A DNA stretch of 64,000 nucleotides from Oligoflexales bacterium (GTDB taxonomy: Bacteria > Bdellovibrionota_B > Oligoflexia > Oligoflexales > RGVZ01): positions 1-64,000 of the forward strand of contig CANLUT010000004.1 of NCBI GenBank assembly GCA_947494335.1, in the 5' to 3' direction. Position numbers and translations under genes: made by a program. The first letter of the stretch is position 1; each line of letters begins with the position of its first letter. The notes under the pieces were generated by a model that was given only the letters and a program-made list of their open reading frames with translations, was not told where the DNA came from and ran no database searches. Below are positions 1 to 7,805 of the stretch, one piece after another.

Positions 1-3000
1 AACGCTGCCGACAACACTGATGTCTACAAGGTCTTAGTTAGCGCTACCGGTGGTGCGACGAGTGTCACGTCATCAAGTGCTACACTCACAGTCAATCCCT
101 GTGCAGCCAACGGATGGTGTGCGGGTGAATTGACATATTACATTGGCGGTCAAGCGACTACACTCGATATCAATGGATCTGGCACCTGGAATAGCCAGAC
201 TTACACGGCCGGTGCTTTGAAATCTATTATTACAATTACATCAGAGCCGTCTAACCAGACGGCCACAAATGGCAGTGCAAATTTTAGCGTCTCCGCCAGC
301 GTCACAAACAGTGCGACTCTAAGCTATCAGTGGCAAAAACAGGAATCTGGGGCAGGAAGTTTTACTAATGTCAGCGGCGCGACTGGCTCGACATTATCCT
401 TATCAGGTCTTACGAACGCGGCTGATAACGGAGACGTTTACCGAGTCGAAGTTAGTGCTTCAGGCGGGGCTGAAAGTGTGACGTCATCAAATGCAACGCT
501 TACGGTGTCGGCTCCGACGACCACTACAACCGGCGGGGCATTTGCTCTCTCCGGAGCAGGTAATGCGGCAGTCAACGGGTGCTATGTTGAGTCGGGATCC
601 ATCAACGGACACCCGTACTACACCAACGGAACTTATTTTGTTTGGTATCAGAATAGTTGGAACATAAGGCGTTCGCTTGATGACATGAGTCCTCCAGAAT
701 ATTGGAATAGTAATAACCAGCCCACAGTTCCCAATTCTTGGGATGTTATTTTCCCTCTTGGTCAAGAACCAGCGCCAACTCACGCTACAGGTTGTGGCGA
801 AACCACGACTACCGCTGCTCCCGGTGGAGTTGCCGCTCCGAATGGGCTGACGATCACGGCGCAGCCGAAGAACGACTACGGCACATCATACAATCAAGAC
901 ATTACTTTTAGCGTCACGACTTCTGGTGGCGGTGTGCCCACTTATCAGTGGCAGTATTACGGACCAGATGCAGTTAATGGTGATCTCGCTTTTATATGGC
1001 GCAATATCACCGGAGCGACATCATCATCATATGTAACCAATGGCGGCACGTTCGCATATTTGATTGGCTCCGATTTTACTTACATGGGCATGGTAAAATT
1101 GCGCTGTGTTGTGACAGCTGAGGGCGGCGCGTCTACGCTGAACAGCGATGAAGTACGGTTCCTTCAGCTAGATTTACTGCACGGAAAAAATCTCACCTGG
1201 TACGGTACTATGGGCACCTGGTCGAATTATGTGCATTACACGCAACCCGTCACATTCGCTCCGCAGGTTGGTGAACTCCTTGTACTGGACTTTTACGACT
1301 TCGCCGGAGCTTATCCAGACACGTCGTGGTACACGGGTGCCGATACTACTCTCAAAATTCAAGTCGCTACAAACGGCTACACAGACAGCGCCGACTGGAC
1401 CGATTTGGACACCTTCGATGGCCGCGGATCTGTATCTGTCTCTGGATACACCATTGAGCCCAGTACAGGAACGAAGTATTACCGCGCCATCCTCGTGAAC
1501 AAATGGCCCTACGCTGTAAACAACGGCACGCAGTCGGCAACTCGCACGCCGCAGCATATTTACGAACGCTACAACACCGACACTGTGCAGGTCACGTGGC
1601 CTTCCGCTCCGACGACCACGACTCCCGGCGGGGCGTTTACTTTGAGTGGCGCGGGGACTTCAGCGGTAAATGGGTGCTATTCGCAAGCCGGAACGCACAA
1701 TGGAATGCCCTATTATTCTAACGGAACCTATTTAGTTTGGTACGAAGGTTTTGAGTGGGCTTGGTTTATAAGCCAATCAGTTGGTGCTGGCCCCCCAGCT
1801 TATTATGGCAGCAATGAAAATGATGTGCCCTCAAGTTGGTCAGAAGTGACAGGATCGTCTCCGGCTCCGACATTGTCTAATGGATGCGGAGCCACAACTA
1901 CTACGACAGCGCCGCCTACGACCACCGCAGGGGCGACGGGAGTCGTTGGATACGTTACGGATAATGAAAATTGGATGGGAGCCACTGGCACTTATTGTCC
2001 TGAAGGGACATTTGATGGAGTACCTTATTACAGGAACGGGCAAAATCACTTCATGTATCGAGAGGGTGGATATTGGTATATAGATTACACAGACCAGCCC
2101 GGCGCACACTATGCTGCGCCAAGCGGATCCATTCAAAGCAGTGCGTCTACCCCGCCACTCAGCGGATGGAGTAACGGTGGATCTATTTCAACCGTAACAT
2201 GCCCGCCACAGCCTATTCCGACAGGCAATGTTGGGTATGTCACGACTAACGTTGGCGAAACAAATCCATGGCAATCTGGCTCAGGGACATTCTGCCCGGC
2301 AGGATATAGCGATGGAGTTCTTTACTATGTCAACAATAACGCATCAGGCTCATGGGTAATGTTTAGGAGTCAAGGGTCGTGGTTTTTTTACCCTGGCACC
2401 AACCCGGTATATTCGTCTGCCGGCACGGCCATCGCGAACTATGGCAATGCTTCATCCACGCCTCCTTTGGGCGGCTGGTCTTACCAAGCTCCTGGAAATT
2501 TTGATTACGGAACTTTGGCGAGTGGCGCAAGTTGTGGAGGGGCACCGACCATTACAATTTCGTCACACCCTTCAAACCAAACTGCAGTGAATGGCAGTGC
2601 AAGCTTTAGCGTCTCTGCCAGCGTCAGCAACTCTACCCCACCAAGCTATAAGTGGCAAAAACAAGAAGCTGGATCAGGAATTTTTAGTGACGTAGGCAGT
2701 GAAGTAAGCGGTGCCACAGGCTCCACATTAACCTTATCAGGTCTTACGAACGCTGCTGATAACGGAGACGTGTACCGAGTCGAAGTCATAGTCAGTACTT
2801 CAGGCGGAGCTATTAGTGTGACGTCATCTAACGCTGCGCTCACAGTGGATCCATGTGCTGCAAATGGCTGGTGTGCGGGTGAAATGACATATTATCTTAG
2901 CGGTCAAGCGACCACACTCGACATCAATGGATCAGGCACCTGGAATAGCCAGACTTATACGGCCGGTGCTTTGAAATCTATTATTACGATTACCTCAGAG

Positions 3001-4701
3001 CCGTCTAACCAGACGGCCACCAACGGTAGTGCAAGCTTTAGCGTCTCTGCCAGCGTCACCAACGCTGCCACACTGAGTTATCAGTGGAAAAAACAGGAAT
3101 CTGGATCAGGAAGGTTTAGTGACGTAAGCGGTGCCACAAGCTCCACATTAGCCTTATCAAGCCTTACGAACGCTGCTGATAACGGTGACGTGTACCAAGT
3201 GGTAGTCAGTGCTTCAGGCGGAGCTGCAAGTGTGACGTCATCAATTGCAACCCTTACGGTGGCGGCTCCGACGACTGCGGCTTCATTAGTCGGCTATTCA
3301 ATTTCTGGATCTCATGCTTACTCTGGTGATTACACTATTTACGGAATACTAGACGGACAGCCAGCTTGGCAGCACTCAACCGATGCATATGTTATCAGCT
3401 ATGCGGGAGGCACAAATGTTGGTTGGATGCTTTTCCCCGGAACTATTGATGGAAATGACGGCACTCCAATCGCGTCTCATTCCTGCGGCTATCCCGCCGG
3501 CGGCGACGGATCATGTGCTGTAGAAACAATTACCGGAACATGGAATGGTGACGCATATTCTGGGGGCAATGGTCCTTCATTTACTGTTTCTTCATTGTAT
3601 GGGGCCAACACAACCACCACAGCTGCTCCCGGTGGAGTGGATGGATTTACCGTTACTGCCGTCATGAACGGGCAATTTGACCAATATGGTGGAACATACT
3701 GTGAAAATGGAACATATAATGGAAAGCCAAAATATAGAAAAGCTGGAACGGGCTACTATATTTTTTCGACCGGCACTCAATGGGCGATCAATAATTATGG
3801 AGGTCTTGGAAATTTTGCTTCTGTATTTGTTAACGATAATGGCGCTACTCCCCCAACTACTGGGTGGTATGACTCTGATAATGACGGATCTCCAACAGTG
3901 GCTTCTACAACTTGCGGCGGAGCCGCGAATACCACAACAGCCGCACCTAGCGGCACAACCACCATTACCATTAGCGAGCAGCCAAAAAACAGCTACGCGA
4001 TTTCGTATAACGATACCGCGACGTTCTCAGTGGCTGCCAGCATCAACAATGGCGACACACTTAGATACCAGTGGCAATATTACGGCGAAGACCCCAACAC
4101 GTATGAATCAGGTTGGTTTGACGTCCCCGGCCAAACATCAAACAGTCTTACGATGTCGCCAAACACGTTCGGTTCGATGGGCCTTAATGTTCAAATGTAT
4201 ACAACTCCCCTGTTTCGTTGTGTGCTAACAGGCGTAAACAGTCCTACCAGCCAGACAACAACGGTCGCGCGCTGGGTGCGTTTCGATCAAGTTGGCGAGT
4301 GGGCCGACTTCACTGGCTATAACGGCGCATATCCCGACGGCTACGTTACAGTCAACGGAAAAGGTTACAACACGCTTACGCTGTCTAGTCTCGAGGATTT
4401 GAACGTACGTGTTTTCTTCATGGGTTATCCGGCGGATTCCTCGTGGTACAGCAGCGATGCATTTACTGCGAAAATCCAGGTGTCAGATGACGCGACAACG
4501 TGGAGCGACATCAGCAGCGCGAATTTCCGCTCGAATTATTTTGAGAGCAACATTCAAGTAACCGCGTTGTCTGGCGTCACCAAATACTATCGTTTTCTCT
4601 TGCAATATAACTGGCCGTTCACGACGACTAACGGTACGCAGTCTTCCCGCACGGCGCCTGAGTCGGTGCACGTGACTGGTGCTCGCGTCACGTGGCCGTA
4701 A
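1..4701 (+). CDS. Giant mosaic Ig-like/Thr-linker protein, 5' end outside window
   Basis: The frame is open from base 1, so the first 1566 visible residues are the C-terminal part of a larger protein. Ig-like blocks (motifs SYQWQKQ and NAADNGDVYRVEV) lie near nt 1-96 (tail only), 230-508, 2549-2845 and 2990-3268. Between them are small blocks with conserved Cys and aromatic residues (for example NGCY..NGTYFVWY) near nt 535-800, 1630-1890, 1940-2220, 2225-2540, 3280-3610 and 3640-3930. Two larger related domains, each starting with a QPKN.Y motif and ending in VTWP, occupy about 850-1605 and 3960-4698. Blocks are joined by Thr-rich linkers such as TTTTAAPGG. No catalytic motif, membrane segment or sorting signal is visible. 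The architecture resembles surface or virion decoration proteins. Thr/Ala/Pro linkers of this kind are familiar to me from marine phage structural proteins, so a phage origin is possible; a host adhesin is the alternative. Confidence 0.8.
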   Translation, partial: NAADNTDVYKVLVSATGGATSVTSSSATLTVNPCAANGWCAGELTYYIGGQATTLDINGSGTWNSQTYTAGALKSIITITSEPSNQTATNGSANFSVSASVTNSATLSYQWQKQESGAGSFTNVSGATGSTLSLSGLTNAADNGDVYRVEVSASGGAESVTSSNATLTVSAPTTTTTGGAFALSGAGNAAVNGCYVESGSINGHPYYTNGTYFVWYQNSWNIRRSLDDMSPPEYWNSNNQPTVPNSWDVIFPLGQEPAPTHATGCGETTTTAAPGGVAAPNGLTITAQPKNDYGTSYNQDITFSVTTSGGGVPTYQWQYYGPDAVNGDLAFIWRNITGATSSSYVTNGGTFAYLIGSDFTYMGMVKLRCVVTAEGGASTLNSDEVRFLQLDLLHGKNLTWYGTMGTWSNYVHYTQPVTFAPQVGELLVLDFYDFAGAYPDTSWYTGADTTLKIQVATNGYTDSADWTDLDTFDGRGSVSVSGYTIEPSTGTKYYRAILVNKWPYAVNNGTQSATRTPQHIYERYNTDTVQVTWPSAPTTTTPGGAFTLSGAGTSAVNGCYSQAGTHNGMPYYSNGTYLVWYEGFEWAWFISQSVGAGPPAYYGSNENDVPSSWSEVTGSSPAPTLSNGCGATTTTTAPPTTTAGATGVVGYVTDNENWMGATGTYCPEGTFDGVPYYRNGQNHFMYREGGYWYIDYTDQPGAHYAAPSGSIQSSASTPPLSGWSNGGSISTVTCPPQPIPTGNVGYVTTNVGETNPWQSGSGTFCPAGYSDGVLYYVNNNASGSWVMFRSQGSWFFYPGTNPVYSSAGTAIANYGNASSTPPLGGWSYQAPGNFDYGTLASGASCGGAPTITISSHPSNQTAVNGSASFSVSASVSNSTPPSYKWQKQEAGSGIFSDVGSEVSGATGSTLTLSGLTNAADNGDVYRVEVIVSTSGGAISVTSSNAALTVDPCAANGWCAGEMTYYLSGQATTLDINGSGTWNSQTYTAGALKSIITITSEPSNQTATNGSASFSVSASVTNAATLSYQWKKQESGSGRFSDVSGATSSTLALSSLTNAADNGDVYQVVVSASGGAASVTSSIATLTVAAPTTAASLVGYSISGSHAYSGDYTIYGILDGQPAWQHSTDAYVISYAGGTNVGWMLFPGTIDGNDGTPIASHSCGYPAGGDGSCAVETITGTWNGDAYSGGNGPSFTVSSLYGANTTTTAAPGGVDGFTVTAVMNGQFDQYGGTYCENGTYNGKPKYRKAGTGYYIFSTGTQWAINNYGGLGNFASVFVNDNGATPPTTGWYDSDNDGSPTVASTTCGGAANTTTAAPSGTTTITISEQPKNSYAISYNDTATFSVAASINNGDTLRYQWQYYGEDPNTYESGWFDVPGQTSNSLTMSPNTFGSMGLNVQMYTTPLFRCVLTGVNSPTSQTTTVARWVRFDQVGEWADFTGYNGAYPDGYVTVNGKGYNTLTLSSLEDLNVRVFFMGYPADSSWYSSDAFTAKIQVSDDATTWSDISSANFRSNYFESNIQVTALSGVTKYYRFLLQYNWPFTTTNGTQSSRTAPESVHVTGARVTWP
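100..508 (+). repeat. Long intragenic repeat, copy 1
   Basis: This stretch encodes a CAANGWCAGE-type linker, a beta-rich segment and an Ig-like block, and it matches bases 2851-3268 almost base for base over long runs. Differences are mostly silent changes in the first part. Such near-identity at DNA level points to recent duplication or gene conversion inside the mosaic gene. Confidence 0.85.
2851..3268 (+). repeat. Long intragenic repeat, copy 2
   Basis: This is the second copy of the linker plus Ig-like unit found at bases 100-508. It follows another more diverged Ig-like block at about 2549-2845, so the Ig units form an array of unequal age. Confidence 0.85.
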
Positions 4702-4764: not shown

Positions 4765-5028
4765 ATGAAACTTAATGAATCGGTAAGGTTGGCTGTAGGA
4801 ACAGAAACCATTGAGCTTGACGCTTTGGACGTTGTGACCATAGACGACAACTCCAGAAAACTAATTACTGCTAGATTAGCGCCATTTTTCAGACCTCTCT
4901 TCTTGTGGGCTGGCGACGGTTATGACAATGTTGGCGACTATACCCAAGCTAAAGTAGAGTCTAAAATATTCGAGTTACTGGGCGACAACGCCCATGAAAA
5001 GATGCAGAGTCTGATAAAAGCCCGATGA
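4765..5028 (+). CDS. Small protein of unknown function next to the mosaic gene
   Basis: It encodes 87 residues beginning MKLNESVRLAVG and is preceded by a GAAGGCGA ribosome-binding region. The protein is soluble, acidic in its middle (ELDALDVVTIDD) and has no signal peptide or membrane helix. It lies 63 bases after the mosaic gene on the same strand, with a weak hairpin terminator directly after it, so the two are probably co-transcribed. I do not recognise a family. The pairing of a large linker-rich structural protein with a tiny conserved-looking soluble protein would suit a phage structural module, but no phage hallmark gene is inside the window. Confidence 0.7.
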   Translation: MKLNESVRLAVGTETIELDALDVVTIDDNSRKLITARLAPFFRPLFLWAGDGYDNVGDYTQAKVESKIFELLGDNAHEKMQSLIKAR

Positions 5029-5049
5029 ACCTCCGGGTTCGACATTTTT
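5027..5049 (+). terminator. Weak rho-independent terminator
   Basis: Bases 5027-5031 (GAACC) pair with 5036-5040 (GGTTC) around a four-base loop, followed by ATTTTT at 5044-5049. It overlaps the stop region of the 87-residue gene. Beyond it, bases 5050-5299 hold no convincing gene on either strand. Confidence 0.45.
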
Positions 5050-5299
5050 GTAGTTTGACCTTTGCCGATTTAACCAGCATGTGAGATGCGTTGATACGGC
5101 TTGGGGTGGGCGTCCAGATCGGCATCACCAGATCTGCTACCATTGAACCAGCGATGTCATCACTTTGTATTGTCAACGAACCTGTCCATTTTACGAGCTA
5201 GCTCTCGAAGCCTCGCCATTCCCTTAATATCATCCCCGCCTGACTGCTGACGCGATTTCGGCTCCATTTGGGCCGCGTCACTTTACGTGGAAAGACTTG

Positions 5300-5776
5300 C
5301 TAGCGTGTAGAATCTCTTTTTAGGCGATCAGCGATGGCAGGCCAGAGTCCGGATGAATGCGGCGCAGCGGTGGCTAGAATCACTTCTGCCTCAGAGTTGT
5401 CGAGCTCGCGCATACCAGTGAATAGTTTTTGCGCGGCCTCGCTGTCATGACCATGAGCAGAGAGACAGACCGTATTACTTGGCTTGGAATGAATCGCTGC
5501 CAGCGCTTGTTGTGCATTTTCGCCGGTTCCAGAAGTCACTAATAATCCAATTTTCTTGTTTCGCCATGGCGCACCGTCGCTTGCATTTAGGCTTGACCAG
5601 TCCTCGATGATATAAAGATTTTTTCTTGGGGCGTAGTGACTGGCAAGCATCCCGGGCGAAGCTTTTTCGTACGTGGACGAAGAGCGTTCAACTGAGATGG
5701 ACGTGGCCTCTTCTATGGCTGTAACTGTAATTTTTCCCGGCCTTAGAAATGAACCATTTTCATGGGAGGCCTTCGG
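5300..5776 (-). pseudogene. 3' remnant of Sua5/TsaC-type threonylcarbamoyl-AMP synthase gene
   Basis: The frame reads LRPGKIT, then SPGMLASHYAPR about 30 residues later, then a Rossmann-like C-terminal domain ending PAIADRLKR. The LRPG element and the SPGM..HYAP linker are hallmarks of long Sua5 proteins, which make the threonylcarbamoyl adenylate used for t6A tRNA modification. The catalytic N-terminal YrdC domain (KxR, SxN, the PTDTVYGL-type segment) is absent: a TGA at 5777-5779 closes the frame and no other frame up to base 6006 encodes it. The first ATG inside the fragment lies at 5650. A free-standing Sua5 domain has no known activity, so I read this as a decayed gene whose function should be covered by another tsaC/sua5 copy elsewhere. 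Bases 5780-6006 contain no recognisable coding sequence. Confidence 0.75.
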
Positions 5777-6006
5777 TCAGCTGGCTCCGCTCGTTAAGAC
5801 AGGCAGTTGTCATCGCTGTCTTTTTTGATTTGACCAGTAAGCGTTTGGATGTTTTCCGTTATGACTGCGAAAATCCCAGTCAAGGACTTGTGAAGGCTGT
5901 GTCCTACTTGCTTGCCGGTAGAAAAAGCCCTACTGACCGACGTCATTTCTATCCAAAACCAAAGACATTACCTATCCTGGACAGGATTCGGGAACTCGGC
6001 ACCATA

Positions 6007-6735
6007 TCATTCGTGACATTTATTGGCGATGAAGCCGCGCACTCCGCCTTGACTGCGAATATCTTCTAAAAACTTGGTGATACGTCCATATTTGTCAGAA
6101 CTGAGAGATGCGGATTTTCGGTAGTCACATTCAATGGCCTGAATCTCTGCGTCTGTGAGCTCACCGTCTTGCTCCAAGAACCATGCTGCAATGAGGGCCG
6201 TCATTGCACCTGTTCGGTCTCGACCAGCCTCACAATGCATCAAAATTCTTTTACCAGATTCAATTTCTGAAACGGCACTCTTAAAAAAAGCACATGAATC
6301 TTTGACCATGCCAGCTTGGGTTTCCCATGTTGATAAAAACTCTAAATCACTGAGCATCTCATGCTGAAAGGTCCGACCAATTCTCAGCTCCTCATGATCG
6401 CGGCAGTAGTAACGGCGATTTTCCGAATCGGAGTAATTCAGAGAATAAATTACATCTGGGTTCCCGACACGGTCACAGGCCCACCCAGAAAAAAATCCCG
6501 AAGCGCGCCAAATTTTACCCTCTGGCAAAATCTTTGTGCCAGAACATTGATTGATACTTGCACCAGCATCACGCAGATTGAGCTTGGAATCCAGAGCGCC
6601 TTCAATCTTGAAGGCAAGCGGCACCCCTTCCGCTATCAGAGTTGGGTAGTAAGCCCAAAGAAGAAACGAAAGGAGTGCCGTGACGCAAGAAAAAATAATA
6701 AGTCGAGATTTAAATTTCACGGCCAATAGACCCAT
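6007..6735 (-). CDS. Membrane-anchored or exported tyrosine/dual-specificity phosphatase
   Basis: A 242-residue protein. Residues about 8-32 form a hydrophobic signal-anchor, followed by a phosphatase domain containing the P-loop HCEAGRDRTG (C-x5-R: Cys168, Arg174), the defining motif of cysteine-dependent phosphatases. A catalytic loop Asp cannot be assigned by eye. The domain should face the periplasm if the anchor works as expected. I place the start at the ATG at 6735, just after the agmatinase stop; an ATG at 6777 in the same frame would add 14 residues and overlap that gene. It is last in a minus-strand run subtilase - ureohydrolase - phosphatase. The substrate is unknown, and phosphoinositide or phosphotyrosine are both possible for this fold. 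Confidence 0.75.
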   Translation of the reverse strand: MGLLAVKFKSRLIIFSCVTALLSFLLWAYYPTLIAEGVPLAFKIEGALDSKLNLRDAGASINQCSGTKILPEGKIWRASGFFSGWACDRVGNPDVIYSLNYSDSENRRYYCRDHEELRIGRTFQHEMLSDLEFLSTWETQAGMVKDSCAFFKSAVSEIESGKRILMHCEAGRDRTGAMTALIAAWFLEQDGELTDAEIQAIECDYRKSASLSSDKYGRITKFLEDIRSQGGVRGFIANKCHE

Positions 6736-6740
6736 CGGGA

Positions 6741-7805
6741 TTAGCAAAGCTTCTGGGTGCGCAATAAACAACCGCACAATTTATAAAGCATTCGAGCGCC
6801 AACATTGGCGTCCCACTCTCCGCCCTCTTCCGAAGGAGCGACTTCCGTCAGATCAAAGCCAACCACACGTCGACCGCTAGCAGACAGCGCTTCTAGAATG
6901 TAACAAGCTTCATCGAAGGAAAGACCACCCGGTACTGGCGTGCCAGTGGAAGGACAATACGATGGATCAAGACCATCGATGTCAAACGAGACATAAACAT
7001 TTTCAGGAAGCGTTGCTATGATTTCATCAGACACGGATTTAAAGGTTTTTCCTTCGGCTTTTGCTTTAAAAAGATCACGACCATAAAAGCAGGTACCTCG
7101 ACTACCCAATGAATCCATGAACGCACGTTCGTCACGACTATAATCACGTATGGCGACTTGAGTCAGCTTTGTCACCTGAGGGTAACTGGTCATCACATTG
7201 TAAAAGATCGATGCATGGCTATAGGTAAACCCTTCGTAAGCGCAGCGAAGATCATGATGAGCATCAAAGTGCAGAACTCCAAAGCCACCTTTGACGGTTT
7301 CTGCAAGGGCGTGAATGAGTCCTTGAGGACTTGAATGATCGCCACCTAATACACAAACAAATTTGCCTTTAGACAACCAATGTTTGGCTGTCTTATATAC
7401 GGATTCATTGATCTTCACGCTGCATTCGTTCACAAATGCGAGATCATCATCTGCCTCCTGACGATGTTCACAGGCTTCAATCACCCTCTGAGCAGCGTCT
7501 TTGGCTTTGTCATTCAATGAGCGAATGACTGGATCTTCCGGTAGAACAGTAATGCCCGCTCTAAAGGCTTTTCCGAATGCGGCATCTTCCATATCTAGCT
7601 GATGGCTAGCAGGAATCACAACATCAGGACCTTTCGACGTTCCTGCGCCGTAAGAGGTTGTCGCCTCCCAATGAACTGGAATCATCACCAGCTTGGCATC
7701 TTCTGGGTTAATCGAGACTCCCAAAAAGCCTGCATCGGCCGCTGGCGGAAGGCCTTGTTCCAGCTCGGCCATTGCATCCTCAAACTTCATATATTTCTTC
7801 ATCAT
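6741..7805 (-). CDS. Agmatinase/arginase-family ureohydrolase
   Basis: A 354-residue protein of the Mn-dependent ureohydrolase family. Metal-binding motifs are intact and in the usual order: GGDHS, FDAHHDLR and SFDIDGLDP. Members hydrolyse guanidino compounds, usually agmatine to putrescine plus urea, and the SYGAG..GPDVVIPAS substrate-side segment is typical of the agmatinase branch. The exact substrate (agmatine, guanidinobutyrate, arginine) cannot be fixed from motifs. I prefer the ATG at 7805, preceded by GGAAATGGAA, over an upstream ATG at 7862 that would overlap the subtilase gene by 41 bases. No polyamine gene is adjacent, so the genomic context adds nothing on the role. Confidence 0.85.
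   Translation of the reverse strand: MMKKYMKFEDAMAELEQGLPPAADAGFLGVSINPEDAKLVMIPVHWEATTSYGAGTSKGPDVVIPASHQLDMEDAAFGKAFRAGITVLPEDPVIRSLNDKAKDAAQRVIEACEHRQEADDDLAFVNECSVKINESVYKTAKHWLSKGKFVCVLGGDHSSPQGLIHALAETVKGGFGVLHFDAHHDLRCAYEGFTYSHASIFYNVMTSYPQVTKLTQVAIRDYSRDERAFMDSLGSRGTCFYGRDLFKAKAEGKTFKSVSDEIIATLPENVYVSFDIDGLDPSYCPSTGTPVPGGLSFDEACYILEALSASGRRVVGFDLTEVAPSEEGGEWDANVGARMLYKLCGCLLRTQKLC

Follow-up and report, generated by a model that had tools for sequence, protein, structure and literature searches.

Phage adhesins built from immunoglobulin (Ig) domains hold virions to surfaces. For modular Ig-like adhesins of gut phages adhesion has been demonstrated (PMC13370021), and these resemble the protein presented here in that several Ig-type modules are combined in one phage protein; their modules are BACON, PKD, and unspecified Ig domains, whereas here they include two further types, designated Cys block and A block. 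Compared with the T4 Hoc and Hoc-like capsid decoration proteins (PMC10385173), the protein differs in its length of at least 1,566 residues, its additional module types, its Thr linkers, and its C terminus. Cyanophage Ig-like head or virion structural proteins (PHROG 613) are 39 to 49% identical to it across the Ig domains, but the matches cover just 5 to 9% of the query, and the Cys and A blocks tested have no counterpart in the named-phage collection. Also similar are tail-fiber regions with Mtd_N genes in two uncultured viral contigs, L032 and L057, which share with our locus the A block and a neighbor gene of 87 amino acids and, in L057, the Cys block. In contrast to these regions, the window (the whole stretch of DNA analyzed, 64,000 nucleotides from an Oligoflexales bacterium) lacks the surrounding phage genes and holds more module copies.

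The protein is encoded by an open reading frame on the forward strand (positions 1 to 4701) that runs for 1,566 codons with no stop and, at its left end, no start. Because the first base of the window is also that of its contig (C4; the genome comprises 8 contigs, 3.34 Mb), the 5′ end has been lost from the assembly itself. The first-pass annotation's estimate of more than 1,560 visible residues is correct, the 5′ end being absent from the contig and not just from the window. Any signal for attachment to the virion or for secretion would be in the N terminus, which lies outside the contig, and this was counted against a phage fiber.

Profiles built from the protein itself placed in this frame three full and one partial Ig_3-like domains, five Cys blocks (about 90 residues), and two A blocks (about 250 residues, an Ig plus a second beta domain); two CAANGWC mini-blocks were recognized in the sequence. 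Thr/Ala/Pro linkers were mapped at residues 170 to 180, 268 to 276, 534 to 545, 630 to 647, 1204 to 1212, and 1311 to 1321, bearing out the earlier description of repeated block types joined by such linkers. The visible part opens with the C-terminal portion of an Ig-like domain (positions 1 to 93; residues 6 to 31 by the A2 profile) and the first mini-block (97 to 225; Cys pair at residues 34 and 40), a duplicate of that at 2851 to 2979. These are followed by an Ig_3-like domain detected by Pfam Ig_3, PHROG 613, and profile (226 to 507; residues 76 to 169), Cys block copy 1 (532 to 801; residues 178 to 267), A block copy 1 (844 to 1605; residues 282 to 535), and three successive Cys blocks, copies 2 (1627 to 1890; residues 543 to 630), 3 (1939 to 2205; residues 647 to 735), and 4 (2224 to 2541; residues 742 to 847). 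Next come an Ig_3-like domain found by Pfam and profile (2548 to 2847; residues 850 to 949), the second mini-block (2851 to 2979), the last Ig_3-like domain (2980 to 3261; residues 994 to 1087), Cys block copy 5 (3631 to 3921; residues 1211 to 1307), and the C-terminal A block copy 2 (3961 to 4698; residues 1321 to 1566). A sixth Cys-like stretch (residues 1097 to 1144) reached a profile score of 4 bits only and was left out of the count.

The mini-block and the Ig domain after it form a duplicated unit, which had been described as nearly identical at the DNA level in two places. This proved too strong, as the measured identity is 86.6% in the core (100 to 508 versus 2854 to 3262) and 84.7% over 491 ungapped bases in a wider comparison (31 to 521 versus 2785 to 3275). 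The two copies score 548 bits by BLAST versus at most 29 bits in 20 codon shuffles, and their codon differences comprise 42 synonymous and 25 nonsynonymous changes, an excess of the former that suggests upkeep at the protein level. The Ig domain is present a third time, at 76% identity.

The small domain with the NGCY..NGTYF..W pattern, here the Cys block, could not be named by the first-pass annotation, and it had no match in Pfam, PHROG, or NCBIfam either. Structure prediction for copy 1 gave a confident all-beta model (pLDDT, 86; pTM, 0.76) with no match in a fold search of the PDB (best E, 4.3). The same search against viral models returned three matches (probability, 0.94 to 0.99; E, 0.1 to 0.5), among them a protein of an uncultured phage and one of an Aureococcus virus, the latter a weak structural match with a probability of 0.96 but an E of 0.32. 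Copies of the block were found in viral contigs L057 and, as a weaker match, L059, and none in 57 other genomes of the host phylum. Only one of three viral copies has the Cys pair, so the cysteines are no core feature of the block. Matches of the Cys motif to HNH genes of Salmonella phages and to L060 were rejected as a chance NGHPYY motif. The Cys block may be an unnamed beta-domain family, with a fold unmatched among solved structures, that might serve phages as an interchangeable binding module of tail fibers and is perhaps shared with algal giant viruses.

The viral relatives L032, L057, and L059 are contig fragments of uncultured viruses, which was counted against a phage fiber. The A block of L032 (19 kb) is 66% identical to copy 1 and belongs to a protein that also contains fn3 and Gly-rich domains. 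In L057 (34 kb), a 1,347-residue protein (L057:6719-10762) ends in an A block (55% identity to copy 1), as the giant frame does. The A block was not found in 42 other genomes of the host order. Its predicted model was weak (pLDDT, 63; fold-search TM of at most 0.37 on the query), the PDB matches, all with low TM, being to larger proteins and to Ig or fn3 folds of a generic kind; because of the weak model, the reading by fold search was dropped and "Ig-like beta" alone was retained.

Immediately downstream of the giant frame lies the 87-amino-acid gene (4765 to 5028, forward strand), the homologs of which sit beside viral A-block fiber genes: in L032 one gene downstream of the A-block gene (45% identity), and in L057 directly after it. 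The gene that comes next in L057 encodes a Cys block with 48% identity to copy 3. The family also occurs in a 186-kb viral contig (L055), near terminase and portal genes. It had no significant Pfam or PHROG match that would name it and was not found in the genomes of 55 relatives. In L059, the gene for a protein with a weaker Cys block is preceded by a large gene of the tail region and one for a tape measure (PHROG, 5.5e-36). Neighboring genes of the viral relatives carry Mtd_N, collagen, RCC1, and LamG domains according to Pfam, Mtd_N being found solely in these viral genes, with the corresponding end of the giant frame cut off. The relatives in L057, L032, and L059 lie among phage structural genes; in the window, only the 87-amino-acid neighbor is left and the upstream side is cut by the contig end. 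A phrog_2 match in L057 sits, as judged by eye, in a PhoH-like frame and was not counted as a terminase. RCC1-like repeats occur in the phage fiber region L057:2885-6379 (Pfam) and, by eye, in a giant protein of the host (L024).

The frame at 1 to 4701 is, in our view, probably the C-terminal 1,566 residues of a phage-derived tail or virion adhesion fiber, lying with its neighbor gene at a foreign insertion. A phage origin is supported by the A block, the Cys block, and the 87-amino-acid neighbor being shared with viral contigs, by the tail and tropism-type genes near the viral relatives, by the absence of both signature modules from the other genomes of the host order and phylum searched, by the matches of the Ig domains to PHROG head and cyanophage virion proteins, and by the insertion described below. 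The earlier suggestion of a module from either a phage virion or a surface display protein stands in its phage part, through the viral relatives, which in turn suggest membership in a virion. Rigid beta modules (Ig-like, Cys block, and A block) would be strung on flexible Thr/Ala/Pro linkers, and the protein may have gained modules as they were duplicated in frame and shuffled. As part of the virus, such a protein would take its place among the tail or baseplate-distal fibers, where many weak contacts, probably glycan-directed, would keep the virion attached to its host; the 87-amino-acid protein would be a conserved companion, possibly in fiber assembly. We infer the virion location, the adhesion, the ligand, and the steps by which the gene came to lie in a host contig. 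A role as a virion adhesion fiber is suggested by analogy with Hoc (PMC10385173) and the gut-phage Ig adhesins (PMC13370021), and what points to the tail rather than the capsid is the set of genes neighboring the relatives.

To the known Ig-domain adhesins the protein adds a module that has no name, is predicted to fold with confidence, and bears a Cys pair at its end, together with a linked neighbor gene. The two provide a handle for locating receptor-binding regions in uncultured large phages, and the shared genes link viral contigs with a lineage of bacteria.

In the nearest relative, the counterpart of the phosphatase gene at 6007 to 6777 converges on metG with 17 bp between the two, whereas in this genome metG is the gene with which contig C1 opens, away from the phosphatase gene; the stretch here is therefore an insertion between the two. 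Within it, a sua5-type fragment (5303 to 5745, reverse strand; Pfam), C-terminal and devoid of the catalytic domain, is 49% identical to the host's intact sua5 and likely represents a foreign pseudogene fragment. Profile searches of the genome yielded no terminase, PF17289 being absent and phrog_2 giving a weak match (5.6e-4) to a 764-codon frame on another contig, which leaves a prophage remnant, an isolated transfer, and a chimeric contig all as candidates. The last of these, an assembly artifact in which a phage contig was misjoined to a bacterial one, we consider rather improbable though deserving of weight. It concerns residence, since a misjoin would leave the protein a phage fiber, and hence overlaps with the phage-derived fiber favored above, so that the likelihoods given need not add up to certainty. 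Such a misjoin would fit the position of the phage-like genes exactly at a contig end, the lack of other phage genes at contig ends (outer 20 kb read by eye), and the abrupt change marked by the foreign sua5 fragment and the stretch 5029 to 6006. However, the junction falls at a site that is variable among relatives, the GC3 of the giant frame (0.479) is close to that of the host (0.469), and its synonymous codon score, about 1 standard deviation below the host mean, is within the host range. With this codon use and GC3 the gene does not look freshly foreign; such usage fits long residence or a host-adapted phage and speaks somewhat against a foreign chimera. Counted against a phage fiber were this host-like usage, the negative terminase search, the lack of phage genes in the by-eye reading of contig ends, and the Ig domain of the same type in giant surface genes of the host. 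In the search for the missing 5′ end, the first 5.3 kb had no blastn match at any of the contig ends read, and a tblastn match at a contig end was rejected as such, being only 36 residues in an Ig stretch of the C3 giant gene. Between the start of contig C1 and the insertion, the search for direct repeats gave a 13-base match only.

A product of phage origin that decorates the capsid in the manner of T4 Hoc, outside the tail, is unlikely. The giant frame does have Ig-like domains in tandem that are akin to phage virion proteins, as expected of phage Ig-like fiber or decoration proteins in general, with Ig_3 the sole Pfam family recognized in it (5.6e-14, four stretches; NCBIfam returned nothing) and PHROG 613, a head protein, matching five stretches (2.4e-50). 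Capsid decoration is favored by this PHROG 613 match, by that of Hoc-like PHROG 2973 to the Ig domains (4e-8), and by the annotation of the cyanophage relatives as head or virion proteins. The named-phage matches, all in cyanophages, cover the Ig domains only, the A and Cys blocks tested having no match in that collection. Yet the best Hoc-like stretch (residues 849 to 954) amounts to one Ig domain, the giant frame ends in an A block with no recognized capsid-binding domain, and the viral neighbors carry Mtd_N and, in L059, tail genes. Two bacterial homologs from the genome collection (L009 and L010) were set aside, sharing with the giant frame Ig domains only.

A surface adhesin displayed by the bacterium, whether bacterial in origin or domesticated from a phage gene, is quite unlikely despite the host-like codon use, the terminase-free search result, and the presence in the genome of several giant proteins with repeats, the C terminus of one being an Ig domain of the same type, because the modules and the 87-amino-acid gene have viral relatives and none in the other order and phylum genomes searched; an ordinary host adhesin with blocks lacking viral kin, the outcome that the first-pass annotation had named as contrary to its idea, did not materialize, as the A and Cys blocks were both matched in viral contigs.

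Three contigs of this assembly end within giant repeat genes: L031 (C8), L024/L025 (C3), and L029 (C6). The giant frame on C3 has 11,093 codons, with RCC1-like repeats as seen by eye and, at its C terminus, an Ig domain like those described above. The starts of contigs C1 and C8 are 79% similar (L016:1-441 versus L022:1-455); they apparently represent a repeated lipoprotein gene, at which the assembly may have broken.
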